A stretch of 64,000 bases of DNA from Streptomyces sp. cg36 (lineage in GTDB: Bacteria; Actinomycetota; Actinomycetes; Streptomycetales; Streptomycetaceae): positions 301,793-365,792 of the forward strand of contig NZ_CP163521.1 in assembly GCF_041080675.1 (NCBI RefSeq). The letters are read 5' to 3'. Below, one piece after another: positions 1 through 11,862 of this stretch. Each line of letters starts with the position of its first letter. The first letter of the stretch is position 1. The notes under the pieces are model-generated. The model made no database searches. It was not told the origin of the DNA and worked only from the letters and a program-made list of their open reading frames with translations. The translations under genes were made by a program, and so were the position numbers.

Positions 1-972
1 TACGCGGCCGTCCTCGCCGACGCCGGCAACGACGTGCTCATCCACGCCCGACGGCCCGAGATCGCCGAGGCGATCAACATGCGGCACGAGAACCCCGCCT
101 ACCTCCCCGGCATCTGCCTGCCCCACACCCTGCGCGCCACCACCGATCCCGCCCAGGCCCTGGCCGGCGCCGACGCGGCCGTCATCTCCGTCCCCGCGCA
201 GTCCCTGCGCGCCAACCTCGCCATCTGGGCCCCGCACCTCGATGAGCGCACCGCGGTGGTCAGCCTGATGAAGGGCATCGAGACCGACACCGGCATGCGG
301 ATGAGCGAAGTCATCCAGGAGGCAGCCGCACTCCCTTCCGAGCGGATCGCCGTGCTCTCCGGCCCGAACCTGGCCCGGGAGATCGCCGCGAAGCAGCCCG
401 CCGCCTCCGTCATCGCCAGCACCAACAACGACCTCGCCCACACCCTCCAGGCCGCGTCCCTCACCCCGTACTTCCGCCCCTACACCAACACCGACGTCAT
501 CGGCTGCGAACTCGGCGGCGCGGTCAAGAACGTCATCGCCCTCGCCACCGGCCTGGCCAGCGGACTGGGACTCGGCGACAACGCCACCGCCCTCCTCATG
601 ACCCGCGGCCTGGCCGAAACCGCCCGCCTCGGCACCCTCCTCGGCGCCGACCCCCTCACCTTCGCCGGCCTCGCCGGCGTCGGCGACCTCGTCGCCACCT
701 GCGCCTCCCCGCTATCCCGCAACCGCACCTTCGGCACCCACCTCGGCCAGGGCATGACCGTGGCCCAGGCCACCACCGCCACCTCGCAGACCGCAGAGGG
801 CGTGAAATCCGCCGCAGCCCTGCTGTCCCTGGCCCGCCGCCACCACGTGGAGATGCCCATCACCGAGGTCGTCGTAGGCGTCCTCGACGCCCAGCTGACC
901 GCCCGGCAGGCCGCCGAACTGCTCATGTCCCGCACCCCGAAACCCGAGCAGTACACGGCGACAGCACGATAA
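1..972 (+). CDS. gpsA: glycerol-3-phosphate dehydrogenase [NAD(P)+], 5'-truncated by window edge
   Basis: GpsA reduces dihydroxyacetone phosphate to sn-glycerol 3-phosphate, the phospholipid backbone precursor, in the cytosol. The frame is open from base 1, so the N-terminal Rossmann glycine motif lies outside the window; about 323 residues are visible, against about 335 for the family. Diagnostic segments are VLIHARR at the end of the second strand, LMKGIE, SGPNLAREIAA, then GDNATALLMTRGLAE and GVGDLVATC in the helical catalytic domain. The stop is TAA at 970-972. No phospholipid genes follow. An extra gpsA in a terminal arm may be a paralogue serving specialised metabolism, but that is inference. 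The family call is secure. Confidence 0.93.
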   Translation, partial: YAAVLADAGNDVLIHARRPEIAEAINMRHENPAYLPGICLPHTLRATTDPAQALAGADAAVISVPAQSLRANLAIWAPHLDERTAVVSLMKGIETDTGMRMSEVIQEAAALPSERIAVLSGPNLAREIAAKQPAASVIASTNNDLAHTLQAASLTPYFRPYTNTDVIGCELGGAVKNVIALATGLASGLGLGDNATALLMTRGLAETARLGTLLGADPLTFAGLAGVGDLVATCASPLSRNRTFGTHLGQGMTVAQATTATSQTAEGVKSAAALLSLARRHHVEMPITEVVVGVLDAQLTARQAAELLMSRTPKPEQYTATAR

Positions 973-1341
973 AGACCCGTCCTGGGATAGACGACCCTCC
1001 GTTCGTCGGGTCGGAGCTGTACATCTGGGTCCCTCGCGTGTCGGCCCAAGGCGGTGTCCGGGCGGTCCAGCCGGATTCACCACCGGTGAGGCCCGAGTTC
1101 GGGTCGGCCGTGAATACGGGGGCCGCCACCAGCAGCGGTCCTCTCGCAAGGTTTGGCGGTAGGGGAGGGCCGGACGGGATTGTCCGCCCCGGTCCTTAGA
1201 AGCTGTATCTCAACCGATCATGGAACGTGCGGGTCGAACAGGTTTCCCGCTGGGGTGATCTTCCCGTTGTGCGCGCATGAAGACAGGGCCTCTCGGTAGC
1301 TCGGGGATGCGAATCTGACCGAGCAGTGCCGGGAGGCCCTG

Positions 1342-2260
1342 ATGTCGTTGTTGTACGCGTTGGAGCCCGTCCAGTTCAACTCGGCTGCACGATCGTGTGA
1401 TTGCCTCGCGCACGTGTACGGCAATGCGGCCGACCATCCCGACCGGGAACGCCGATATCCGTCGGACATGACGGACGCGGAGTGGGCGGCCATCCGGCCG
1501 TTGCTGCCGGTGCCGCCCTGGCTGAGGGGCAGGGGCGGACGCCCCGAGGGCTACTGCCACCGCCAACTGCTGGACGCGGTCCGCTACCTGGTCGCGGGCG
1601 GGATCTCGTGGCGGGCGATGCCCGCGGACTTCCCCGGCTGGGGCCGGGTTTACGCCTTCTTCCGCCGCTGGCGCGAGCAGGGGCTGATCGCTGAGTTCCA
1701 CGACCGGCTGCGAGGGAAGGTCCGTGAGCACGAGGGCCGTGAGGCCGAGCCCACGGCGGGAATCATCGACGCGCAGTCGGTGCGGGCCGCCCCATCGGTG
1801 CCGGCCGCCTCACGCGGCTACGACGGCGGGAAGAAAGTGCCCGGGCGAAAGCGGCACATCGTGACCGACACACTCGGTCTGCTCCTGGTCGTCTGTGTCA
1901 CCGCCGCGAACATCGGTGACCGCGACGCCGCTACGGGCCTGCTGCAGCAGCTGCGCCGTCTGCACCGCGACATCACCCTCGTCTGGGCCGACGGCGGCTA
2001 CACCGGCTCCCTCGTCGACTGGTGCCGGGACAGACTCGCGCTGACCTTGGAGATCGTCAAACGCACCGACGACATGACAGGGTTCGTGGTGCTGCCCAGG
2101 CGCTGGGTGGCAGAGCGCACGTTCGCGTGGCTAATGCATTCGCGCCGGCTGGGCCGGGACTACGAGACGTTGTACCAGTAGCGAGGCGATGATCCGGTGG
2201 TCGATGGTCACGCGGATGAGCCGGCGTCTGGCACGGCCACGGGCCGCCGCCCGGCACTGA
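1342..2260 (+). pseudogene. IS5-family DDE transposase, frameshifted near C-terminus
   Basis: The intact reading frame runs 1342-2181 (279 residues). An N-terminal DUF4096-like part (YPSDMTDAEWAAIRPLLP, residues about 37-54) is followed by the DDE nuclease: GIIDAQSVRA (first Asp), VWADGGYTG (second Asp) and RRWVAERTFAWL (Glu). After RDYETL the frame stops at TAG 2179-2181, but the expected family ending (SSEAMIRWSMVTRMSRRLA) continues in another frame to TGA 2258-2260. A single-base change near 2174 therefore removed about 26 residues. The catalytic core is complete, so residual activity cannot be excluded. It lies inside the element at 1198-2846. Confidence 0.85.
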
Positions 2261-2729
2261 ATGCCCCCGACTCCTCCATGAGGAGCCACCCGCGCTCGGC
2301 CAGGCGCCGGGCCTTCGAGCGCACCCCCTCGACCTTCGCCGACGTTGTCTCCAAGCCCAGCCGAGCCGTGATCTCCCTGGCCTTCAGCGGCCCCTGGCCC
2401 GCAGGCTGCCGCTCGTCGAGCACGCCCAGAATCCGCTGATAGTCCGGCGCCAGCACCGTCACCGGCAGTCCTTCGCGCCAAGGCGGCACGATCGAACCCG
2501 GCACCGGCGAGGGCGCGGTTTCCGCCTTCGCCGCGGTCACGGCGGTGGTCTCGGCAGCCGAGGCTGCCAGGGCCTCGACCAGCTCCTCCCGCGCGATCAC
2601 CCGTCGGTCCAGCTCGATCTCCGCGGCCTCCAACACCCCAGCCAGCCGCGTAACTTCCTCCCGCAGACCCTCCACTCGCACCCGGGCTGCTGTCTCCCGC
2701 TCCTCCAGAATTCCCAGCACCGACGCCAT
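2208..2729 (-). CDS. IS-borne accessory protein, coiled coil plus winged helix
   Basis: A protein of about 173 residues starting at MASVLGILEERET; an in-frame ATG six codons upstream is an alternative. Residues about 5-50 are heptad-rich and charged (EERETAARVRVEGLREEV), consistent with a coiled coil. The C-terminal half (VLAPDYQRILGVLDE, then LKAREITARLGLETTSAKVEGVRSKARRLAERGWL) looks like a winged helix. Comparable proteins occur beside transposases in actinobacteria, where they are annotated only as hypothetical. The gene is convergent with the transposase and overlaps its broken tail. A role in DNA binding or transposition control is inference. Confidence 0.6.
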   Translation of the reverse strand: MASVLGILEERETAARVRVEGLREEVTRLAGVLEAAEIELDRRVIAREELVEALAASAAETTAVTAAKAETAPSPVPGSIVPPWREGLPVTVLAPDYQRILGVLDERQPAGQGPLKAREITARLGLETTSAKVEGVRSKARRLAERGWLLMEESGAFSAGRRPVAVPDAGSSA

Positions 2730-2933: not shown

Positions 2934-3190
2934 GTGAACGACCGTAGGTACCCTGCCGCAGCCGCGCACTACTGGATGGTGCGCGAGAACATGGCGCCCC
3001 ACCCCGGTGGCAAGGCCCGAAAAGACAAGTCTGTCTACGCCGTCACCGGCCTGACCGCCGAACAGGCCACCGCCGCCCGGCTCGCCCAACTGATCCGTGG
3101 CCACGGGAAGACCGAGGCCCGGCACCACGTGAGAGACGTGACGTTCACCGAGGACCTCACAGCTGCGCACCGGGACCGCTCGGGCCGCCC
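2934..3190 (+). pseudogene. chimeric relic: NucA/NucB toxin fragment joined to ISAs1-type transposase C-terminus
   Basis: Codons 5-27 (RYPAAAAHYWMVRENMAPHP) closely resemble YPAAAAYYWVIMEKLASHP in the secreted toxin at 35272-39639, and the DNA is also near-identical (TACCCTGCCGCAGCCGCG). The frame then passes into KSVYAVTGLTAEQATAARL and HHVRDVTFTEDLTAAH, which are typical of the C-terminal domain of ISAs1-family transposases. The normal transposase end is lost beyond AAH. Two unrelated genes are therefore joined, with no sign of a working product. Confidence 0.6.
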
Positions 3191-3196
3191 GGAGCC

Positions 3197-3400
3197 GTGG
3201 TCCCGGCCGGGCTCGCGCGCCTGCTGGCTCAACTTGCCGGGCCCTACGACTTCTGGGACCGCCCTGATGGGCACTTCGGTCCGCTGACGGAGGCCTACCA
3301 GCTGTCTGCCGGGGACCGGGCGCACGCCAACTCCCTCTGCCTCGCCCGACGCCGAGCCGACGTGCTCTTCGCGATCCTCCGCGATGGGGCTTCCATCAAC
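3197..3400 (+). pseudogene. IS110-like transposase C-terminal remnant
   Basis: A short frame contains ANSLCLARRRADVLFAILRDGA, the pattern that ends many IS110-family transposases (LARRR.DVLFAMLRDG.). Nothing of the N-terminal RuvC-like domain is present and the frame runs on into unrelated sequence. It directly follows the ISAs1 fragment, so this stretch is a graveyard of transposase ends. The family call rests on one motif. Confidence 0.4.
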
Positions 3401-3622
3401 CGCTCCCTTTTGCCTCTTGACCGAAGCAATAGAGGCCCCGCCATCCCGCCGGAGCGATCCAGCGCCTCGACCCACTTCTCGCGCACAAGAAGCATACCAA
3501 CTCGCCACGCAGTAACACGACTTGCGCGAAGAAGGCGGCTGCCCGCTGATCGCAGCAGGGCAATCCACCCTTGCCGTGAAGTTTCCGAAACATTAAGTCC
3601 ACGTTGAATACGCCTATCCCTG

Positions 3623-3652
3623 TTGATCATGCCGGGCTCATCTGAATATATT
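3623..3652 (+). promoter_or_regulatory. candidate promoter of RiPP-like operon
   Basis: TTGATC (3623-3628) and TATATT (3647-3652) are separated by 18 bases in an unusually AT-rich stretch about 50 bases before the precursor ATG. This fits a vegetative sigma promoter with a leader of roughly 40 bases. It is proposed by inspection only. Confidence 0.4.
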
Positions 3653-3703
3653 GATTCAGGTAGCCCTCCGGACGGCATTCAATCACTACCGAGGAGTCAC
3701 AAG

Positions 3704-3865
3704 ATGGCCACGACAGCTACCGCTCCGATCGCACCCTCCGCTCCCGAGGAGGCGGACCGGGTGGACACCGTTCCGGCGTACATCCCCACCATCGAGGAAA
3801 CCGTCAAGGCAAGCGGTGGCCACATGCAGGCTGCCGAAGACCCGACGCCGAACATCGTTTCCTAA
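3704..3865 (+). CDS. putative RiPP precursor peptide (53 aa)
   Basis: The start is ATG 3704, with GAGGAG at 3691-3696, seven bases upstream. The N-terminal part is Ala/Thr/Pro-rich (MATTATAPIAPSAPEE), followed by DRVDTVPAYIPTIEETVKA and a short tail after a Gly-Gly (HMQAAEDPTPNIVS). The peptide is acidic, lacks Cys and a Sec signal, and ends in serine. Its size and its place as first gene of an operon with a peptide-methylase-like enzyme, two kinase-like proteins and an exporter argue for a precursor whose C-terminal segment is modified. The GG is a plausible leader/core boundary but is unproven. No known precursor family was recognised. Confidence 0.7.
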   Translation: MATTATAPIAPSAPEEADRVDTVPAYIPTIEETVKASGGHMQAAEDPTPNIVS

Positions 3866-3908
3866 GTTCATCAAGAGAATCCCAAGAGAGTATTTAGAGG
3901 GTCATCGG

Positions 3909-4724
3909 GTGCGCATGAAGCGTGAAGACCTGCGCGTCCCCGATGCTCAGGCCGACCTTTATCTGGTCGGTCTGGGCATCGGGGGATTTGATCGCAGGAG
4001 TGTAGAAGTTGACAACCTGCTGAAGAGCGCGCAGAAAGTGCTGCACCTGACGGCATTTGACGCTGATCTTCGGCGCCTCTCCGCGGGGGACGTCGTCGAT
4101 CTTGAGCAGGTCTACGGAACGGGCTCTGATCCACGGCAGGCATACCAAGAGATGGCCACGCAGGCACTTCTCGCCGGGGTGGACGCTCGGGGTAAGGGGT
4201 ATGCGTGTTTTCTCACCTACGGTCACCCGCTGTTCCTTGTCGACTCCGGATGGTGGATTGAACAAGCAGCAGCTGAGTACGGCATCACGGTCAAGGCAAT
4301 CCCAGCCACCTCTTTCCTGGATTCACTGCTGATCGACCTGGGAGCCAGGTTTGACCGTGCGGTGCAGTCCTACGAGGCAAATGTCTTCTTTAGGTATCAG
4401 ATCCAACCAGACATCAGGTTCCCTGTCGTGCTGTCTCAGTTCGGGTCCTTTGGCGTGGGCCGACTGAGGCAGCGGGACAACCTCTACGGTCGGCTCGCCC
4501 CGCTCACCCGACGTCTCCGTGACCTCTATCCCACGGACCGGCCCGTGGCCGCAGTTTTGTCGGCCTGGCGAGCGGACATGGCGCCCCAGATCGCACATAC
4601 GACCGTGGGTGAGATCGACACCCTCGCCTCCAGTAGCCACAGCGGTATGAGCCTCTATATCGGAGGGAGTGAAGAGTGGACACGTTCCCGACGGAACTCG
4701 ATACTCTATCCTCGACCCGCCTGA
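3909..4724 (+). CDS. borosin-like SAM-dependent methyltransferase (tetrapyrrole methylase fold)
   Basis: GTG 3909 is chosen because GAGG (3897-3900) lies eight bases upstream; ATG 3915 is the alternative. The N-terminal glycine loop YLVGLGIGGFD (residues about 17-27) and the segments TYGHPLFLVDSG, AIPATSFLDSLLIDLG and AVQSYEANVFFRYQ match the tetrapyrrole-methylase superfamily. They are closest in style to peptide alpha-N-methyltransferases of borosin pathways (YGHP...; QSYEAT-like). The length of about 271 residues fits a stand-alone catalytic domain with the substrate encoded separately, as in split borosins. Its 3' end overlaps the next gene by 49 bases. A corrin or porphyrin substrate is unlikely because no such genes are nearby. 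Confidence 0.8.
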   Translation: MRMKREDLRVPDAQADLYLVGLGIGGFDRRSVEVDNLLKSAQKVLHLTAFDADLRRLSAGDVVDLEQVYGTGSDPRQAYQEMATQALLAGVDARGKGYACFLTYGHPLFLVDSGWWIEQAAAEYGITVKAIPATSFLDSLLIDLGARFDRAVQSYEANVFFRYQIQPDIRFPVVLSQFGSFGVGRLRQRDNLYGRLAPLTRRLRDLYPTDRPVAAVLSAWRADMAPQIAHTTVGEIDTLASSSHSGMSLYIGGSEEWTRSRRNSILYPRPA

Positions 4725-5497
4725 ATTTCTGGGGAATAGACGTCATGCTGCTGCTTCAGAGCAGCTATGATATCTCCCATATCTCGTATTACTTCCAGGA
4801 CTATCTGGTTCCCGCATCAGATCGGGCACCACTACTCACCGTGGCGCTCACCTCGGAATCTCACAGCTTCATCGGTGAACGTGCGGGTTCACTCAAGCGC
4901 GTCCACGTAAGATGCCATAACGGGCCTTGGGAAATATACGACGAGTATAGAAACTATCCGCAGCGCCCGACGCCATTCCCCCCGTTTGCGTTATGGCCAC
5001 TGAATAGATACATTCGCACGGTTCACGCTAGCGCCGCCACCCCGCCTGATACCCCTGGCAAATCTATTCTCTTGCACGGACCGTCACGCTCGGGTAAATC
5101 TGCCCTCCTCTTGGAACTCCTTAACCGAGGGTGGGGGTTCGTCTGCGACGACACGGCGCTTATCGAGGCCCGTGACACGACACTGACGTACAGCCGTCCC
5201 ATCGGCATCCGGGAACGCACACTGAAGATCCACCCGTGGCTGGCCGCGCACATACGCCGCACGCCCAGCTTCCACACCCCGACGGGTACAACCTGGGCCG
5301 TTCATCCAAACCTACTGCCTAGTCGACGCGCCCCGGCAAGGACTGCGTGGACCTGGACGGCCCGGCTCGCCCCCTCGGCGCGCTATGCGTTCACCCGACA
5401 GTCCGACTCGGAGTGGTCCATCACCATGGACCCCTATCTGCACACACACCGCGCTGCCGCAGACTTGTCTGCGGCCCTTGCCGAGGACAGGACATGA
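4676..5497 (+). CDS. HPr-kinase-like P-loop protein, copy 1
   Basis: GTG 4676 follows GGAGGG (4662-4667) by eight bases and lies inside the end of the methyltransferase gene, so translation is probably coupled. The product has 273 residues. Residues about 1-110 have no recognised motif. A Walker A loop GPSRSGKSALLLELLNRGW (about 131-149) is followed by FVCDDTALIE and SRPIGIRE, the order seen in HPr kinase/phosphorylase-like proteins. Relatives in some lasso-peptide clusters phosphorylate the precursor's C-terminal serine; the precursor here also ends in Ser. That substrate is inference. The protein lacks the N-terminal domain of true HPr kinase. Confidence 0.75.
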   Translation: MDTFPTELDTLSSTRLNFWGIDVMLLLQSSYDISHISYYFQDYLVPASDRAPLLTVALTSESHSFIGERAGSLKRVHVRCHNGPWEIYDEYRNYPQRPTPFPPFALWPLNRYIRTVHASAATPPDTPGKSILLHGPSRSGKSALLLELLNRGWGFVCDDTALIEARDTTLTYSRPIGIRERTLKIHPWLAAHIRRTPSFHTPTGTTWAVHPNLLPSRRAPARTAWTWTARLAPSARYAFTRQSDSEWSITMDPYLHTHRAAADLSAALAEDRT

Positions 5498-6405
5498 CGC
5501 AATACGGCAGCCCAAGCCCCGATAGCTCCGGCCACAGCCTCTACTTCGACTTCTATGGGACGGTAACCCGCCTGAGTATCACACAGGCGGACATCGATGC
5601 AGCGCTCTTCTACTTCGGCGGTCAGCGCATCGCTCCAGTCTCCCTCAAGGAGACCGATGTTCAGGTGAGTCTGGACTGCACGGAATGGCCCAGCCGCGGA
5701 TTCTTCACGAGCCTGCTCCGCAAGGACGGGCTGGCCAAGCGCATTCAGATTGACCAGCGCACCGACTCCCAGTGGCAACGGGTGGCAGACCATACCTTCA
5801 CCACATGGTCGAGCATTCCTTCCCCCCTCCCACCCTTCCGGTATTCGAGCCTGTGGAACACCCTCGCTGTAGCAGCCGGCACATGCCTGCGCCTGCCCGA
5901 CAGCAGCGGGCTTCTCCTGACCGGAGACAACTATGTCGGCAAGACCTCGGCAGCCCTAGAGTTGTGCGATCGGGGAGCCCGCCTGATTAGCGACAGCCTG
6001 GCCGTACTGAACGTGAACACCGGGTACTTTCTGCGGCACGACAGCCCCATCGGCTTCCGCCGTGCTTCCAGGCGCCAGCACCTCGCGAAGATCACCAGCA
6101 TCAACCATCAGGAAACAGTTTCCCCTGACACCGGACTCGTGCTCCTTGCCCGTCCTGAGGATGTTCTTGGACGACCCAACCTTGACCGGGCGAAGGTGCA
6201 GCACGTGGTCCGGCTGGTCCGCCAGGAGGCTCCGACCGGCCACGCCTCCTGGCAGGAAACGGATACCTCTCGGTGGTTCTCCGGCGTTGACCCTGCAGAC
6301 ATACGCAGTCGGCTCCCACCTCGTACGCGCATCGTGACCGTGGCCCCCGAAGCCACTCCGAGCGAGACGGCTCAGCAAATCCTCGACTCACTGGAGGGGC
6401 GCTGA
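5494..6405 (+). CDS. HPr-kinase-like P-loop protein, copy 2
   Basis: ATG 5494 overlaps the TGA of the preceding gene (ATGA). The product has 303 residues with the same architecture as its neighbour: an unrecognised N-terminal half, then a variant Walker A GDNYVGKTSAALELCDRGA (about 188-206), ISDSLAVLN and DSPIGFRR. Sequence identity to copy 1 is low outside these motifs. The loop keeps GKT, so nucleotide binding is expected, but the acidic pair DD of copy 1 is SDS here. One partner may therefore be catalytic and the other regulatory. A pair of such genes beside a peptide methylase is unusual. It is followed 13 bases later by the exporter ATPase. Confidence 0.72.
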   Translation: MTQYGSPSPDSSGHSLYFDFYGTVTRLSITQADIDAALFYFGGQRIAPVSLKETDVQVSLDCTEWPSRGFFTSLLRKDGLAKRIQIDQRTDSQWQRVADHTFTTWSSIPSPLPPFRYSSLWNTLAVAAGTCLRLPDSSGLLLTGDNYVGKTSAALELCDRGARLISDSLAVLNVNTGYFLRHDSPIGFRRASRRQHLAKITSINHQETVSPDTGLVLLARPEDVLGRPNLDRAKVQHVVRLVRQEAPTGHASWQETDTSRWFSGVDPADIRSRLPPRTRIVTVAPEATPSETAQQILDSLEGR

Positions 6406-6418
6406 TGGCGGAGGCGAC

Positions 6419-7129
6419 ATGCTGACCCTGGAACGTATCGCCAAAACCTACCCTAAGAGCACCACCCCGGCCCTGCAAGACGTGTCATTCTCTCTCGATG
6501 CAGGGGAGGTGGTCGCCCTGATCGGGCACAATGGGGCAGGCAAATCCACTCTGTTCGACATCGTCGCCGGGCTGAAGCGTCCCGACCAGGGTGCCGTACG
6601 ACTTTCGGTACCCCGGCACGATTTCGGCTGGTGCCCGCAGCGCGAAATCATCGACTGGTCTCTGACGGTGCGCCAGAACGTGGAATTGGGCCTGGCGCTC
6701 CGCAAGGGTTCTCGGCGCAATGTCCGGCAAGAAGTGGTCGAAATCTGTGAAGTGGTCGCGCTGCAGAAAAAGTTGGACAACCAGGCAGAGACCCTGTCCG
6801 GAGGCGAGCTGAGGCGCTGCCAGATAGCCCGAGCCATAGCCGGTCGTCCTCGCCTCATGCTCCTGGACGAACCGACCACCGGGCTGGACCCCGACGCCAT
6901 CGCTCGTGTCTTCACCTACTTGCGCGAGAGCGCGCTGAACTCTGGTGCGGCGCTGGTCAGTACGCATGAGACGTCGCGGTTCGCCGACCACTGCACACGT
7001 GTCATTGCCCTGCACGGTGGTCGTGTAGTTGCCGACGCACCCACCGCCGCTTTCCTGGAACCCGTCCCGGGATCCACCGACCTTTGGGACGGATATCAAC
7101 TCCTGACGGCAGACCTGGACGGCTCATGA
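6419..7129 (+). CDS. ABC transporter ATP-binding protein
   Basis: A 236-residue ATPase with Walker A GHNGAGKST (residues about 37-45), Q-loop region WCPQREI, signature LSGGELRRCQIARAIAG, Walker B LMLLDEPTTGLD and switch histidine in STHETSRF. GGAGG sits just upstream of ATG 6419. It is translationally coupled to the permease (ATGA at 7126). The subfamily is that of ABC-2 exporters, used for drug or peptide export and self-resistance. From its position it most likely exports the modified peptide of this operon. Confidence 0.93.
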   Translation: MLTLERIAKTYPKSTTPALQDVSFSLDAGEVVALIGHNGAGKSTLFDIVAGLKRPDQGAVRLSVPRHDFGWCPQREIIDWSLTVRQNVELGLALRKGSRRNVRQEVVEICEVVALQKKLDNQAETLSGGELRRCQIARAIAGRPRLMLLDEPTTGLDPDAIARVFTYLRESALNSGAALVSTHETSRFADHCTRVIALHGGRVVADAPTAAFLEPVPGSTDLWDGYQLLTADLDGS

Positions 7130-7905
7130 CTTCCACTCGCGTCAGTCTTGACCGGGTACTCGTCGCTGCACGTTTCCATACGGCCTCCATGTGGAACTGG
7201 CGGCAGGTCTACTATGGACGCATCATCGAGCCCGTCACCTACTTCGTGTTCCTCGCTGTCGGCATTGGCGGGGCACTCGCATCGGCCGACGGTCGACACC
7301 CTGAGGACTACCTGTCCTTCGTGATCCCCGGGATGATCGCCATGCTCGCCTTCCGGTCGTCGACTGCGGCCATGTCAGACGTCGCCAACGATCGCAAGTG
7401 GGGTGTCTTCGCCTTCTACCGCATGTATGGCGGTGGCGTGGCTGGCTATCTGGCCAGCATCCTTATTGTCCTGACCGGCATGTTCCTCGTTCAACTTGCT
7501 CTCATCCTCGTGATTGCCGTGCCACTCGGTGGTCTTGTCGGCACGTCCGGTGGACGGCTGGCCAGCGCCCTAGCAACGGGCGTGCTGGCAAGCGTTGGCT
7601 GGACAGCAGTCGGCGCGGCGGTCGCCACGCGAGTGCATTCGTACGCGACGCGTAACCTCATCGTGTCCGTCATCACGCTTCCAGTGATTCTCGCGGCGCC
7701 ACTCTTCTATCCGTTGAAGTCGGCCCCCGAATACTTGAAGATCATCGCCCGTGTCGACCCTCTCACTTACCAGGTCGACTGGCTGCGCGATGTGTGGTCC
7801 GGCTCGCTCGATGGGCTCCTCTGGTCGGCGATCTGGGCGCTCCTGACGTCCGCAGGCGCTCTCTCTCTGCTCCGTCGCGCGGATCCCCTGACGTCAGAGC
7901 GATAA
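7126..7905 (+). CDS. ABC-2 type transporter permease
   Basis: A 259-residue integral membrane protein with about six hydrophobic segments (for example VTYFVFLAVGIGGAL, FVIPGMIAMLAF, ILIVLTGMFLVQLALILVIA, LIVSVITLPVILAAPLF). The segment PLTYQVDWLRDVW is typical of ABC-2 permeases. ATG 7126 overlaps the ATPase stop codon. Together they form one exporter, presumably a dimer of each subunit, in the cytoplasmic membrane. It is the last gene of the operon; no clear hairpin terminator was seen between 7906 and the IS at 8022. Confidence 0.9.
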   Translation: MTSTRVSLDRVLVAARFHTASMWNWRQVYYGRIIEPVTYFVFLAVGIGGALASADGRHPEDYLSFVIPGMIAMLAFRSSTAAMSDVANDRKWGVFAFYRMYGGGVAGYLASILIVLTGMFLVQLALILVIAVPLGGLVGTSGGRLASALATGVLASVGWTAVGAAVATRVHSYATRNLIVSVITLPVILAAPLFYPLKSAPEYLKIIARVDPLTYQVDWLRDVWSGSLDGLLWSAIWALLTSAGALSLLRRADPLTSER

Positions 7906-8021
7906 GCGCGCTAACGACGAGGCGACAACATCGGAGGGGATACCCAAGGGGGGCCAACGCTCCGCGAGTCGGCGGCAGACTTCAAGGACCCGGTGGGGGT
8001 GGGCAAACGATCACTGGCTAA

Positions 8022-9036
8022 CGAGTTGGTGCGTGATAGCGGGTGGGGTGTGTTGGGCTGCTCGGGGGTGTGGTTCAGGTTGTGGCGGTGCGGTCGGAGA
8101 CGAGGCCGGCGATGGCTCGGTAGGTGTCGGGGAGGCGGTCGCGGGGGTGGGTCCAGCGGATGAGTTGTTTCCAGCGTTTGTAGTCGGCGAGGGCGTGTTC
8201 GACGGTGATCCGCTGTGAGGAGTGGTCATGTCGCTGGCGTTCTCGGTGTTCGACGAAGGGCGCTATGGCTCCCGGTCGTAGTTTGCGCGGCGGGGTGAGG
8301 GCCTGGCCGGGGTGGTCACGGCCCAGGCCGAGGTAGCCGTCATCAAGGAGGACCTGGACCAGCCCGAAGTGGTCGAAGCACCCGCTGATACCTGCCGCGC
8401 GGGCGGCGGTCGTGTCATGCATCCGCCCTGGCCTGAGTGTGTCGGCCCACAGTGTGCGGCCGTGGTGGTCGGCGATGACGGTAGCTTTCATCGTGTTCTG
8501 CTTCTTCTTGCCCGACACAAATGCACGCCGGCCGCTGCGGCCCGCGGCGGGGCGGCGGACCTGGACCTCGGTGGCATCCAGCCGCAGCCGGACGTCTTCG
8601 GCCTGGGCGTAGGCGAAGACGTCCTCCAGCGTGCGAAGCCGCACGCCAGGCCGCTCAGGGACCGCGAAGCCCCGTTCTGCCAGCAGCCGGCGTACCTCAC
8701 CGACCGCACGGGTGACGGTGGATCGGTCCACACCGTACAGCAGGGCCAGAACAGAATGCGGCAGATCGTGACGCAAGTGGATCAGCGTGGCCACCAGACG
8801 GTCCACGAAAACCAGCCGGTAGCGGGCACCAGCCCCCAGAGCCCGCTTCCTCTCCCCGCCCCTCGCCTGATACCGGCGACCCTCCACCCCAGCCACCCAC
8901 GGCCTGGCCAACTCCGCCACCAGCGACGACAGATGCGCCATCGAGACACCCGTGAACAACGGATGCGCCAGCACTGCCCGATCAACCGTGTCCCTCACCA
9001 CGAGAGCATGCCCACCCGCTATCACGCACCAACTCG
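8022..9036. mobile_element. IS5-type insertion sequence with TAA target duplication
   Basis: This is a 1015-bp element. Near-perfect inverted repeats start CGAGTTGGTGCGTGATAGCG at 8022 and end at 9036 on the other strand. TAA at 8019-8021 and TAA at 9037-9039 form an exact three-base duplication, the TNA type expected for this family. It carries one minus-strand transposase. The clean ends suggest a recent, possibly still active insertion immediately downstream of the exporter operon. Confidence 0.85.
8075..9025 (-). CDS. IS5-type transposase (HTH_Tnp_4 / DDE_Tnp_4)
   Basis: An intact transposase of up to 316 residues. GTG 9025 lies inside the terminal repeat; GTG 9001 or 8998 (VRDTVDRAV) are alternative starts. 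The helix-turn-helix part is HDLPHSVLALLYGVDRSTVTRAV. The nuclease part contains LRLDATEVQV (Asp), KATVIADHHGRTLW, VLLDDGYLGLG (Asp) and RITVEHALADYKRWK (Glu). The KKKQNTMKA and GRMHDTTA segments are family hallmarks. No frame disruption was seen, so the protein may be functional. Confidence 0.88.
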   Translation of the reverse strand: MIAGGHALVVRDTVDRAVLAHPLFTGVSMAHLSSLVAELARPWVAGVEGRRYQARGGERKRALGAGARYRLVFVDRLVATLIHLRHDLPHSVLALLYGVDRSTVTRAVGEVRRLLAERGFAVPERPGVRLRTLEDVFAYAQAEDVRLRLDATEVQVRRPAAGRSGRRAFVSGKKKQNTMKATVIADHHGRTLWADTLRPGRMHDTTAARAAGISGCFDHFGLVQVLLDDGYLGLGRDHPGQALTPPRKLRPGAIAPFVEHRERQRHDHSSQRITVEHALADYKRWKQLIRWTHPRDRLPDTYRAIAGLVSDRTATT

Positions 9037-9148
9037 TAAGTACACGGCGTCGACCATCTCGGGCTCGTCGCAGGCTTCGATCAGAGTGGCCCTGACCGGG
9101 GAGAAGGCACACTGGGCGACGGCAGGTTCGATCAGCTAGTCGCCCTCC

Positions 9149-9583
9149 TTGCCCAGCGGCACCGCGGCGGGGCCCGCCTCCCTGCTCGCCGTCCACATCC
9201 CGCGCAGCGTGCCGGCCCCGGGCCCCGCGACGGGGGCGTACCTGGAGGCGGTCGTGCTGCGCACGGTCAAGACCGGCGGCTCCTCCGGCCCGGCGCCGGC
9301 CGTCGTGCTGGTGACCACCGGCCGCGACCATCTGGTGATCCTGCCCGAATGCGGCGAGGCCGACCGGCTCGCGGCCGTCATCGAGCACACCGTCTGGCAC
9401 CCCGGCATCGCCGTGCACCTGGTCGGCCTGGCACCCAGCAGGAACGAACGGCTCATCACCACACTGGAATCGCTCCTCGCCACCACCCCCCGCACCACTG
9501 CCTGGGAGCAGCTGGAACGACTGGCCGGCCCCCATCCGCAGGAGGGCTACTGCATCTACTGCCGGCGGGAGAGCACCGGGTAG
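9149..9583 (+). CDS. hypothetical protein, possibly 5'-interrupted
   Basis: A 144-residue frame from a TTG, with high GC3. It contains VVLVTTGRDHLVILPECGEADRLAAVIEH and a C-terminal CIYC pair that could bind metal. The same frame continues upstream to the IS boundary at 9040 (KAHWATAGSIS) but is cut by TAG 9137-9139. Either the gene starts at 9149, or it is the 3' part of a gene broken by a nonsense codon and by the IS. No family was recognised. Confidence 0.4.
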   Translation: MPSGTAAGPASLLAVHIPRSVPAPGPATGAYLEAVVLRTVKTGGSSGPAPAVVLVTTGRDHLVILPECGEADRLAAVIEHTVWHPGIAVHLVGLAPSRNERLITTLESLLATTPRTTAWEQLERLAGPHPQEGYCIYCRRESTG

Positions 9584-9664
9584 CGACCGCACGGCGGACT
9601 GTCCCAGCTCCGGTGGATCCTTGGATGCACGCCGGTCGCCGGGGGTGAGGCCCACCCTGTGGTG

Positions 9665-9910
9665 TCAGCGCAGGCGGCCGAGGTGGATGACGCTGACGCG
9701 GACCTGCTGGTCGCTGATCTCGTACATCACGCGGTAGGCCCCGACATGGATGCGCAGCACGTCGGCACTGCCGAACGCGCCTTTGGGCCGTGGTTCCTCG
9801 GCGAGGTGGTCGACGGCGGTGAACACCTGGCGCACCCCGTCGGGGTCGTCCTTGGCGAAGCGTGCGGCCTGGGCGAGCGCCTCGGGTTCCCAGATGACCT
9901 CGTAGGTCAC
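9665..9910 (-). CDS. type II toxin, RelE/ParE family
   Basis: An 81-residue protein with the RelE/ParE fold signature: MTYEVIWEPEALAQAARFAKDDP at the N-terminus, then GSADVLRIHVGAYRVMYEISD and a terminal VIHLGRLR. RelE toxins cleave mRNA at the ribosome; ParE toxins poison gyrase. The sequence does not settle which. GTG/ATG 9910 overlaps the antitoxin stop by four bases, giving translational coupling. Confidence 0.88.
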   Translation of the reverse strand: MTYEVIWEPEALAQAARFAKDDPDGVRQVFTAVDHLAEEPRPKGAFGSADVLRIHVGAYRVMYEISDQQVRVSVIHLGRLR

Positions 9911-10167
9911 GCCTCAGCTCCGCCGAACACACGCCGGTACGCCTCGTCGTGCGGGACGCCGGCGTTCTCGCCCCTCGCCTGGCGCGCCCGGTAGGCGGCC
10001 AGCGCACGCAGTTCCTGCAGTTCCAGGGCGTCGGCGGGGCTGACCAGTATCGCGACGGTCTGCCCGTGGTCGGTGATGGCGACCGGTTCGCGGGTGGCGC
10101 TGACCTCGCGTGCGATGGCGCCCAGGCGGGCGCGGGCTTCCACGATCGAGTACGTGCTCTCCGTCAT
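9907..10167 (-). CDS. antitoxin, Phd/YefM family
   Basis: An 86-residue protein starting MTESTYSIVEARARLGAIA. It carries the Phd/YefM DNA-binding beginning (S-x-x-EAR-x-x-L) and EPVAITDHGQTVAILVS, followed by an Ala/Arg-rich C-terminal tail that would wrap the toxin. It is first in the operon, so it should neutralise the downstream toxin and repress the shared promoter, as is usual for this family. An in-frame extension to 10236 lacks family similarity and is disregarded. Confidence 0.88.
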   Translation of the reverse strand: MTESTYSIVEARARLGAIAREVSATREPVAITDHGQTVAILVSPADALELQELRALAAYRARQARGENAGVPHDEAYRRVFGGAEA

Positions 10168-10348
10168 GCACACCAGTGTACGGAAGTGTGCACTATCCCG
10201 CTCGCTTCCGCAGGACAGACGGGAACAATCCGACATGCATTGGTGTCCTGGGCGCGGTGTGAAGAACCTGGCAGCTCCGCTCCTCTTCTACCCGGCCGAA
10301 GCGGGGCGGAGCTGCCGGTGGCCGGATGGAGACCGGCCGGTAGGGCAG

Positions 10349-11077
10349 TCAGCGGGTGAGAAGGTCTTCGAGCCGGTGGGCGAGAGCGGCACTGGGCTGG
10401 GGAATGTTGCCGAGTTCGTCGTCGCCTTCGACAGCCAGGTACCGGACGGCGTTTTTGACGGCGTCGTCGGGGACGTAGGTGTCGTCGCCGGGGGCTTCGA
10501 AGCGCATGGTGATGCCCGCGCCAGGGGCGCCGGGGGTGATGGCGCTGTGACCGACGGGGGTGTACTGGCCCACCTCGCGGTCGAGGACGGCCAGCTGGGA
10601 CGCCCAGAAGTCGGCGTCCCGCAGCTCTCCGCGGCGCAGGTGGAGGAAGTACAGACACAGCGCGCTGGTCGGATTGCCCGCGCCCGCGGCGAACAGCCAC
10701 CAGAACTGTGCGCCTTCCTCCCGGTCGGCGAGGTCGAGCAGGCAGGCGAAGGTGAGGGCGCCCCCGGGGTCGCGGTCGGCGTGGAAGCGGGCGAGGCGGC
10801 AGGCGGCCTCGGAGTCGGTGATGACGTTCTGCGACAGTTCCCACAGCCGGTGTGCGGCCTGTTCATGCAGCGCGGTGGGGGTCCGGCGGCGCGCTCCGCG
10901 GCCCTGGTCGGCCATCAGCAGGCCCATCCAGGTGAGCTCGGTGAGGTCGCGGGCCAGGCGGGCGCGGGAGGCTTCCAGGTGGGCGGGTGTGTAGTCGCCC
11001 TGGAAGACCCGGGTGCGGGTGAGGGCGTGGTCGATGCTGCCGGGCGGCTGGGTTGGCATGGTGTCCTCACTGGTCAT
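10349..11077 (-). CDS. Sel1/TPR-like protein of sigma cassette 1 (no IclR domain)
   Basis: A 242-residue protein. Its central part (residues about 90-160) contains ALTFACLLDLADREEGAQFWWLFAAGAGNPTSALCLYFLHLRRGE. This aligns with EGAQFWFQYAAGAGSQAAARCLYLLHLTRAE in the larger protein at 13628-15448, so the two are paralogues. The C-terminus (DDELGNIPQPSAALAHRLEDLL) matches DADLGEVLRPSAHLAAEL there, just before that protein's IclR part, which is absent here. ATG 11077 overlaps the sigma gene end by 11 bases. The role is unknown; a partner or anti-sigma of the upstream sigma factor is inference. Confidence 0.65.
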   Translation of the reverse strand: MTSEDTMPTQPPGSIDHALTRTRVFQGDYTPAHLEASRARLARDLTELTWMGLLMADQGRGARRRTPTALHEQAAHRLWELSQNVITDSEAACRLARFHADRDPGGALTFACLLDLADREEGAQFWWLFAAGAGNPTSALCLYFLHLRRGELRDADFWASQLAVLDREVGQYTPVGHSAITPGAPGAGITMRFEAPGDDTYVPDDAVKNAVRYLAVEGDDELGNIPQPSAALAHRLEDLLTR

Positions 11078-11672
11078 CGTCGTCTTTCATGTCGAAGCCG
11101 AGTTCCGCCGCGAGCCGCCGCTTGGCACTGCAGCGCAGGGTGCGCACTGTCTCGGGAGTGATGCCCATGGTCTGCGCGGTGCGCTTGGTGGTGAAGCCGA
11201 GTGCGTAGTTGAGGACCATCACATCAAACTGGCGCTCGGGCAGGCGGGCCATAGCCGCATAGAGACCGATGGTGTGCTCGAGTTCGTCGAGTTGAGCGTG
11301 GAATTGGGCACGGAAGTTCTCTATGACGACATGAGTGGCTGCCTTGATGGCTCGTTCGAACACCATCGTCTGGGGGCCCGCGGCCGGCCGTCCCTGCATC
11401 ATCAGCTCGGTGGCGACGCGTTCCTTGTGCAGTGCCCAGGAGTAGGAGTGGAAGTCGGGCTGCTCTGTGCAGTGCTGCCAGTTGATCGCCAGGTAGAGGA
11501 AGGTGCCGTGGACGAGTTCACTCGCGTCGCGTTCGTTGCCGAGCTGGATGCGGGCGTATTCGTAGTAGGGGCGGTGGTAGTCGGTGTGGAAGGCGCGAAA
11601 AGGCAGCGGCATGGCGTTGATCAGTTCCGTCATCGCCCGCTCGCTCGGCTCCGGTGACGAGCTCTCACTCAC
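11067..11672 (-). CDS. ECF-like RNA polymerase sigma factor, cassette 1
   Basis: GTG 11672 is preceded by AAGGAG at a good distance and gives 201 residues. The region-2-like segment is HRPYYEYARIQLGNERDASELVHGTFLYLA. The region-4 helix-turn-helix is ARLPERQFDVMVLNYALGFTTKRTAQTMGITPETVRTLRCSAKRRL. Such proteins direct polymerase to a small regulon. The gene overlaps the small protein upstream and the Sel1-like gene downstream, so all three are probably one coupled operon. The closest relative in the window is 13056-13631 on the other strand. Confidence 0.8.
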   Translation of the reverse strand: MSESSSPEPSERAMTELINAMPLPFRAFHTDYHRPYYEYARIQLGNERDASELVHGTFLYLAINWQHCTEQPDFHSYSWALHKERVATELMMQGRPAAGPQTMVFERAIKAATHVVIENFRAQFHAQLDELEHTIGLYAAMARLPERQFDVMVLNYALGFTTKRTAQTMGITPETVRTLRCSAKRRLAAELGFDMKDDDDQ

Positions 11673-11862
11673 TGTCAGCTCCTTCGGCCCGCAGGGGGGC
11701 GTCGTGGCGCACCGCAGGGCGGGGGTGCTGGCTGACGAGGGTTGAGGCTCCGATCCGGACGCCGGCGCCCAACAGGCGCCGCAGCAGGCACCACGCATCC
11801 GGCGCGTACGCGCGCGCGGCGGCGGCCATGGCCAGCACGAGGCTGACAACGTCTGACTTCAC
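11665..11862 (-). CDS. small protein of sigma cassette 1
   Basis: A 65-residue protein from GTG 11862. A hydrophobic stretch (VVSLVLAMAAAARAYAP) is followed by CLLRRLLGAGVRIGASTL. This matches RCWRRLLGAGVRVGAAEL in the protein at 12829-13059, which shows that the frame is real in both places. It could be a membrane-associated peptide acting on the sigma factor, but no function is known. The end overlaps the sigma gene by eight bases. Confidence 0.6.
   Translation of the reverse strand: MKSDVVSLVLAMAAAARAYAPDAWCLLRRLLGAGVRIGASTLVSQHPRPAVRHDAPLRAEGADSE

Follow-up and report, generated by a model that had tools for sequence, protein, structure and literature searches.

A six-gene cassette in the genome of Streptomyces sp. 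cg36 probably, if by no means certainly, encodes a pathway for a ribosomally synthesized and post-translationally modified peptide (RiPP), in which a borosin-like methylase and a couple of HPr-kinase-type (HPrK-type) proteins, one kinase and one degenerate kinase, would act on a short conserved peptide, to be methylated, phosphorylated and exported. The cassette occupies positions 3704-7905 of the stretch of DNA analyzed here (64,000 nucleotides; hereafter the window), which is the final 64 kb of a 365,792-base contig in a 9.02 Mb genome of 3 contigs. Its six co-directional genes encode, in order, a 53-residue peptide, a borosin-fold methylase, two HPrK-type proteins that we call K1 and K2, an ABC ATPase and an ABC permease. 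A preliminary description of this DNA had proposed the same genes at the same positions, overlapping or closely spaced, and our reading of the open reading frames (ORFs) together with family matches agreed with it: the methylase gene overlaps that of K1 by 49 bases, while the K1/K2 and ATPase/permease pairs each overlap by 4 bases. We found that description right in kind, and the locus more interesting than it had suggested in two ways, namely that the putative core of the peptide is conserved across families and that the methylase is without an Arg carried by its relatives.

The precursor peptide gene (3704..3865, plus strand; 53 residues) has its own ribosome site, GAGGAG, ending 7 bases before the ATG, as had been claimed, and its conservation indicates that this small gene is real. 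A Pfam search of the precursor gave no match, and a database protein search, which had 2 candidates only, returned the peptide itself and one homologue (P0044, Streptomyces syringium, 85% identical), probably because the corresponding ORFs elsewhere are uncalled. By reading the DNA, we found an ORF of 43-45 residues upstream of the methylase gene in each of five related loci, from Microbacterium hominis (L004), Sinomonas albida (L005), Sinomonas susongensis (L006), Curtobacterium flaccumfaciens (L007) and genome G546 (L016), the last of these belonging to the same family as that of L004. With the window peptide as sole query, tblastn matched the small ORF in all five (E 1e-8 to 8e-8), and tblastn also showed the order precursor-methylase-K1-K2-ATPase-permease to be kept in the window and in every one of these loci. 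Identity over the best piece of each match was 31-62% for the five proteins, and the precursor gave 50-81%. The small gene, the methylase and both kinase-type genes thus recur together in five further loci, and the genes flanking the cassette, compared by eye, look different from one locus to the next. In L007 (8001-8763 and following), the matches to the methylase, K2 and the ATPase were split over frames, which suggests that this copy, or its assembly, is broken; its precursor ORF is intact.

Alignment of the seven precursors (those of the window, S. syringium and the five loci) divided the window peptide into a variable, leader-like N-terminal part of 23 residues (3704..3772, plus strand), a conserved segment of 19 residues, PAYIPTIEETVKASGGHMQ (3773..3829, plus strand), which is the probable core and/or recognition site, and a variable C-terminal tail, AAEDPTPNIVS, followed by the stop codon (3830..3865, plus strand). 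Precursors were 43-53 residues long overall, with 20-23 variable residues before the conserved segment and tails of 2-11 residues that are dissimilar between loci. In the five related loci the ORFs end in P-x-Y-[IV]-PTIEET-[FV]-x-ASG-[GA]-H-x-Q and a tail of 2-5 residues, while the two Streptomyces precursors carry an 11-residue tail; the motif common to the window precursor and the five loci is P-x-Y-x-PTIEET-x-x-ASG-x-H-x-Q. Thirteen of the 19 segment positions were invariant in all seven precursors; T29, T33 and S37, as well as the His and Gln of the segment, were present in 7/7, and Lys35 was not invariant. Over the 19 conserved codons, each pair of sequences differed by 5-12 synonymous versus 2-5 non-synonymous changes, the synonymous equalling or exceeding the non-synonymous in 15 of 15 pairs, which points to constraint on the segment at the protein level. 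A profile made from the seven precursors matched each of six whole genomes exactly once at E<=1, always in the operon (E 7.1e-25 to 4.6e-21); since all six genomes contribute rows to the profile, these E-values are not independent, and the point is the single occurrence. Of 329 genomes sampled from the G546 family, the same profile matched one at E<=0.001, namely G546.

These data bear on the possibility that the small ORF encodes a regulatory or transporter-associated peptide and that the enzymes act elsewhere. A conserved part this constant would be unusual for a core and could be taken to favor such a role, but the single occurrence in 6/6 genomes directly upstream of the methylase, the protein-level constraint on the segment, and the ribosomal-peptide precedents that exist for borosin-fold and HPrK-type enzymes alike all speak for a substrate, and we hold this alternative to be highly improbable. 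A putative core as constant as this one is not what is usually seen in antibiotic RiPPs and is reminiscent of peptides serving as cofactors or signals. Given how little the segment changes from family to family, we think it likely that the product is a single conserved effector, such as a signal or a ligand for a metal or target, rather than an antibiotic under diversification.

The methylase gene (3909..4724, plus strand) encodes a stand-alone, borosin-fold S-adenosylmethionine-dependent enzyme of 271 residues, as assigned from family, PDB sequence, fold and tree. Its start was set by homology: GTG at 3909 was preferred, since translation from it yields MRMKREDLRVPDA, which corresponds to MRLKREDLRVPDA in P0008, and ATG at 3915 is the alternative. 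The protein matched the Pfam family TP_methylase (PF00590) above cut-off (9.4e-12) and contains the YGHP and QSYEA motifs that had been pointed out in it. Borosin enzymes made up 25 of 26 PDB sequences matched at E<=1, with SonM best (2.7e-9) and a single uroporphyrin methylase at 0.055, and they accounted for all 25 matches of the methylase family profile to the PDB at E<=0.01 (SonM and OphMA-type). An AlphaFold model of the enzyme (predicted local distance difference test, pLDDT, 83.7) gave the same picture, in that the best 50 of 786 Foldseek matches were all borosin methylases (template-modeling (TM) score by query 0.73-0.79) and that comparison with SonM (7ltc_A) yielded TM scores of 0.76/0.77 over 249 columns, a nearly whole-length borosin fold.

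We placed the methylase in a tree of 36 rows, comprising 17 family members (among them 16 of 37 database matches), eight other borosin-like proteins (a label of our own; P0042 and P0043 are included) and 11 further proteins from this genome that match PF00590, which are not individually named and of which one is a very long branch; SonM was given in part only, and L002 was left out. The tree split the 25 borosin-type rows from the 11 other PF00590 matches with 100/100 support, so that the methylase groups with borosin-type enzymes as had been suggested, and an identity as a cobalamin or uroporphyrin methylase is ruled out by sequence, predicted fold and tree. Within the borosin-type clade, the 17 family rows formed one clade of their own (100/100; stem of 1.88 changes per site). 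The eight other borosin-like rows did not form one clade, with L024 outside, and the fork placing the family among them received 94/88.

K1 (4676..5497, plus strand) and K2 (5494..6405, plus strand) had been described as two different P-loop proteins of HPr-kinase type, and this held insofar as both have a P-loop and resemble Pfam Hpr_kinase_C, at 24.4 bits (E 2.3e-5) and 26.7 bits (E 4.6e-6), respectively, which is below the gathering score of 33.3 bits; the full motif set was found in K1 only. By family, alignment and model, K1 combines a His, a P-loop of the form GxSxxGKS and an Asp-Asp pair, and these residues (H117, G135/S137/G140/K141/S142 and D158/D159) were conserved in 15 of 15 proteins. 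The P-loop and Asp pair align with those of HprK, and the equivalence of the His was deduced from the start of the aligned ranges; we take these to be the functional residues of HPr kinase, the His being the catalytic one. K2, by family and alignment, has a P-loop of the form GxxYxGKT and is without the second Asp, in that D167, which aligns to the HprK Asp pair, is followed by Ser or Asn in 5/5; judged by eye against K1, it has also lost the His. Comparison of K1 with the NCBIfam HprK-related kinases A and B (TIGR04352 and TIGR04355) revealed a weak similarity of 27.9 and 21.8 bits, far below the 200-bit cut-offs. The K1 model (pLDDT 91.7) matched HprK/P over residues 112-273 and belongs to the HprK/PEPCK fold (PEPCK, PEP carboxykinase), while no HprK counterpart is assigned to residues 1-111; in the VIA structure list, the PEPCK and HprK rows were tied in Z, so that this list cannot separate the two fold relatives. 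Taken at the level of motifs, K2 looks like a degenerate paralogue and K1 looks intact in its active site.

Like the HPrK-type lasso peptide kinases BsfK and ThcoK, K1 would be a P-loop enzyme of HPrK type encoded in a cassette for a ribosomal peptide, whereas the present locus differs from those systems in that no lasso enzymes were recognized and in having two paralogues, one of them degenerate. The corresponding kinase of paeninodin is reportedly named PadeK. We rejected a lasso cassette, as no cyclase or B1/B2 family was among the Pfam/NCBIfam matches listed, at E up to 1. HPrK homologues have been reported to phosphorylate lasso precursors on Ser (available parts of PMC10368454 and PMC8498205), and by this analogy phosphorylation of the present peptide by an HPrK-type enzyme is plausible. 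The C-terminal Ser was discarded as a general phosphorylation site: only two of the seven precursors, both from Streptomyces, end in Ser, so a C-terminal-Ser rule cannot hold for the family.

A different use of ATP can also be envisaged, in which K1 and K2 leave no phosphate on the product and serve to activate the C-terminus or a Glu as a step towards ring closure or another coupling, like ATP-using RiPP enzymes of other classes. The conserved Thr, Glu-Glu, Thr and Ser of the segment are possible ring partners, and the K1 model resembles HprK and PEP carboxykinase structures alike. Against this, the known HPrK-type RiPP enzymes phosphorylate Ser/Thr (PMC10368454 and PMC8498205, as far as available), no ligase or cyclase family was among the Pfam/NCBIfam matches listed, and Lys35 is free to vary; we therefore consider such coupling unlikely.

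The last two genes encode an ABC transporter ATP-binding protein (6419..7129, plus strand; PF00005, ABC_tran, 7.3e-30) and a DrrB-like ABC-2 permease (7126..7905, plus strand; ABC2_membrane, 2.2e-14), and an exporter-type ABC-2 pair comes last in all six loci, window included. In the four loci where the ATPase match came in one piece, identity to the window protein was 53-58%; for the permease it was 45-47% across five loci. Export of the peptide had been proposed on the ABC pair alone and is put too firmly in that form. For the ABC ATPase, the NCBIfam matches considered were the best 25 of 200. An anti-phage defence system was rejected after PADLOC returned no family at E<=0.001 for the precursor, methylase, K1, K2 and permease; for the ABC ATPase, it returned 23 ATPase models, the best being mad3 (7.6e-32).

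Several observations weigh against the reading that we favor, that of a peptide methylated by a borosin-like enzyme and phosphorylated by an HPrK-type one. In an alignment of 21 rows (the window protein and 20 of the 37 database matches), SonM Y58, Y71 and Y93 have counterparts in Y67 (20/21), Y77 (21/21) and Y102 (21/21), yet the position of SonM R67 and OphMA R72, four residues before an invariant Tyr, is Pro or Ala in all 21 family members, and the bottom-lock Trp (SonM W166) is absent from 17/17 family rows of the tree; the eight other borosin-like rows of the tree all carry the Arg and all carry the Trp. Judged by its length, the precursor leaves no room for a binding domain of 55 residues like that of SonA. 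Its conserved segment is polar and charged in character, whereas the cores of the borosins tested are mainly hydrophobic (available part of PMC11285071), although acidic residues do alternate with others in type III borosin cores (available part of PMC11395268). The Foldseek fold match of K1 was weak (TM 0.34/0.53 for the best row), and no protease, regulator or RiPP recognition domain was among the Pfam/NCBIfam matches listed for the six products. Finally, co-occurrence gave a mixed picture. Of 15 proteins returned by a K1 profile search that scored 7995 candidates, 11 were strong matches (E<=7.2e-57, followed by a gap to 5.5e-18). In favor of our reading, five of the 11 lie on contigs equal in bases to contigs with a methylase match (55777, 320333, 9611874, 790823 and 4880); the other six are without a methylase match on an equal-sized contig, five of these being on contigs of <9 kb.

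The substitution of the Arg bears most directly on the chemistry. In SonM, R67A retains trace activity only and R67K suffers a 97-fold loss of efficiency; in the authors' view R67 organizes the clamp and the substrate, and a direct part in catalysis is doubtful for the residues that they mutated (available part of PMC8429565). In the present family, R145, R219 and D221 are specific and invariant (21/21), with Asp at the R145 position in OphMA and SonM. In the region that corresponds to the top clamp of SonM, 16 of 21 members have an Arg (R185) that might substitute for the lost clamp Arg. With a borosin-type relation on one side and a deep separate clade with its change from Arg to Pro or Ala on the other, backbone N-methylation, as judged from sequence and model, is plausible, and the statement in the preliminary description that the peptide is N-methylated, with a residue essential in SonM replaced throughout the family, goes further than the data.

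Alternatively, the methylase may have left backbone N-methylation, its target in this peptide now being a conserved His, Gln or Glu side chain or some other group. A shift of this kind would fit the long stem of the separate clade, the clamp and lock residues now gone, the new invariant RxD motif, the invariant R145, and the conservation of His and Gln in all seven precursors. It is harder to reconcile with the nearly whole-length borosin fold, with the retained YGHP motif and active-site Tyr residues, and with the chance that R185 replaces the lost Arg. We regard this alternative as possible, if on the doubtful side.

Having named these residues, we compared the cassette with known borosin systems. 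As in the split (type IV) borosins SonM/SonA of Shewanella oneidensis, a stand-alone borosin-fold methylase lies beside a short precursor, with the Tyr residues and YGHP motif kept. The differences are the replacement of Arg67, the absence of Trp166, a precursor without the helical 55-residue binding domain that precedes the core in SonA (residues 1-55), and a fixed HPrK-type pair plus ABC pair. With the fused borosins OphMA, dbOphMA and MroMA1, the methylase shares fold and sequence relation, whereas its precursor is separate and the OphMA R72 position is changed. Borosin class 4 (available part of PMC11395268) is alike in its separate methylase and short precursor with no recognizable binding domain, and unlike in gene set and in the residues lost here; the word 'kinase' is absent from the main text of that paper.

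The locus might accordingly be simply another class 4 split borosin, without a binding domain, that happens to carry accessory genes. Separate methylases and cores of this sort have already been described (available part of PMC11395268), and the methylase fold is of borosin type. The accessory gene order, on the other hand, is kept in 6/6 loci including the window, key methylase residues differ, and no cassette partners accompany any of six other borosin-like methylases: tblastn of their stretches (L002, L003, L017, L018, L023 and L024) at E<=0.01 matched the methylase alone, with no match to the precursor, K1, K2, ATPase or permease, L002 and L003 being only about 3.7 kb long. On balance we consider this explanation doubtful. 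Two of these stretches have features of their own. L003, from the chromosome of the same genome, contains a 765-residue ORF (10-2307, minus strand) with a second, Arg-bearing borosin-like methylase domain at its N-terminus, followed by ~475 residues of unassigned kind; in L018, from a relative, a 139-residue ORF (3081-3500) overlaps the start of a borosin-like methylase (3497-4348) and is a possible split-borosin precursor.

Returning to the favored reading of a methylated and phosphorylated peptide, we propose that the methylase would thread the conserved C-terminal segment of the precursor through its active site and methylate it, most likely at backbone amides, and that K1 would phosphorylate one of the hydroxyl residues conserved in this segment, T29, T33 or S37, with K2 perhaps assisting as a peptide-binding or regulatory partner. 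The ABC pair would then export the modified peptide, and any trimming would fall to a protease from outside the cassette. A more specific version, which we offer tentatively and think rather questionable, is that methylation is gated by the kinase: the HPrK-type pair would phosphorylate a conserved Thr/Ser, and the methylase would then recognize the phosphopeptide or the K1/K2-bound peptide, the product being one conserved exported peptide, both phosphorylated and methylated, that acts as a signal or ligand across actinobacterial families. Phosphopeptide recognition would in that case stand in for the lost clamp Arg and binding domain.

The cassette is rare. The protein database held 37 methylase matches, 35 of them with >40% identity, and those named by organism were all actinobacterial (Streptomyces, Kitasatospora, Frondihabitans, Pseudarthrobacter, Arthrobacter, Sinomonas, Rhodoglobus and Curtobacterium), the closest named relatives being Streptomyces proteins at 95% and 90%. 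A pattern scan of a genome collection yielded 82 stretches with 4 relatives (L004 to L007; L016 came from separate searches), a search of viral contigs 35 stretches with no relatives, and a plasmid collection 8 records at 24.6-31.6% identity. Methylase relatives at E<=1e-20 occurred in 2/295, 2/398 and 3/394 sampled genomes of three families, two of the three in the 394-genome sample being distant, Arg-bearing borosin-like enzymes. For the own genus, with a relative as query, 3/392 genomes were positive, comprising the own genome and two distant Arg-bearing ones; the methylase profile found 1/66 and 1/7 sampled genomes, and the window methylase as query matched 2 of 100 relatives at E<=0.001, one being the own genome and the other a distant match. 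All of these samples include genomes already known to be positive, and absences in the larger ones are soft because the best 6-9 candidates per genome were scored. Separately, among the strong K1 matches that are without a methylase match on an equal-sized contig, the sixth, P0048 (Kitasatospora, 58% identity), lies on a 266,664-base contig and may be a variant locus without this methylase, or a search miss.

The surroundings of the cassette give it a distinct appearance within the window. Its guanine-cytosine (GC) content is 61.8% versus 67.3% for the window, and in 1-kb steps was 58-64% within the cassette and ~66-72% on both flanks. An IS4/5-type DDE transposase ORF lies upstream (1342-2181), and a second DDE transposase ORF lies downstream (8075-9655; 526 residues as read, of which 280-515 are the transposase part). 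The cassette thus looks horizontally acquired and apparently mobile. A weak sigma-70-like promoter match, TTGATC-18-TATATT (3623..3652, plus strand), was not clearly above chance and was set aside, two such matches being found in 3000-8200 against a mean of 1.0 in shuffles; terminators (2 found versus 2.4 in shuffles) and RNA structure between the precursor and methylase genes (z 0.54) were discounted likewise. Adjoining the downstream transposase is a ParE-like toxin and Phd/YefM-like antitoxin pair (9665-9910 and 9907-10236, minus strand), and further on a protein with a sigma-70 region 4 match (11067-11849, minus strand) stands next to an ORF without Pfam match (10349-11077). At the contig end (63300-64000, 701 bases), no inverted repeats of >=12 bases turned up that lay 60 bases or less apart, so this may be an assembly break and not the finished end of a linear replicon.

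In the literature searched, no paper joined 'borosin' and 'HPr kinase'. We found no described pathway for a RiPP cassette with a borosin-like methylase and an HPrK-type pair, and we regard it as new provisionally, because two borosin-type surveys lie outside that coverage and may already list the set. If our reading is true, this cassette joins two kinds of peptide-modifying enzyme not found together in the literature searched, and its borosin-fold methylase functions in the absence of an Arg on which SonM depends. It would also offer a small, tractable system (six genes, 4.2 kb and a 53-residue substrate) for phosphorylation gating of peptide methylation, and a near-constant core in so patchily distributed a cassette would point to a defined function of the peptide in biology.

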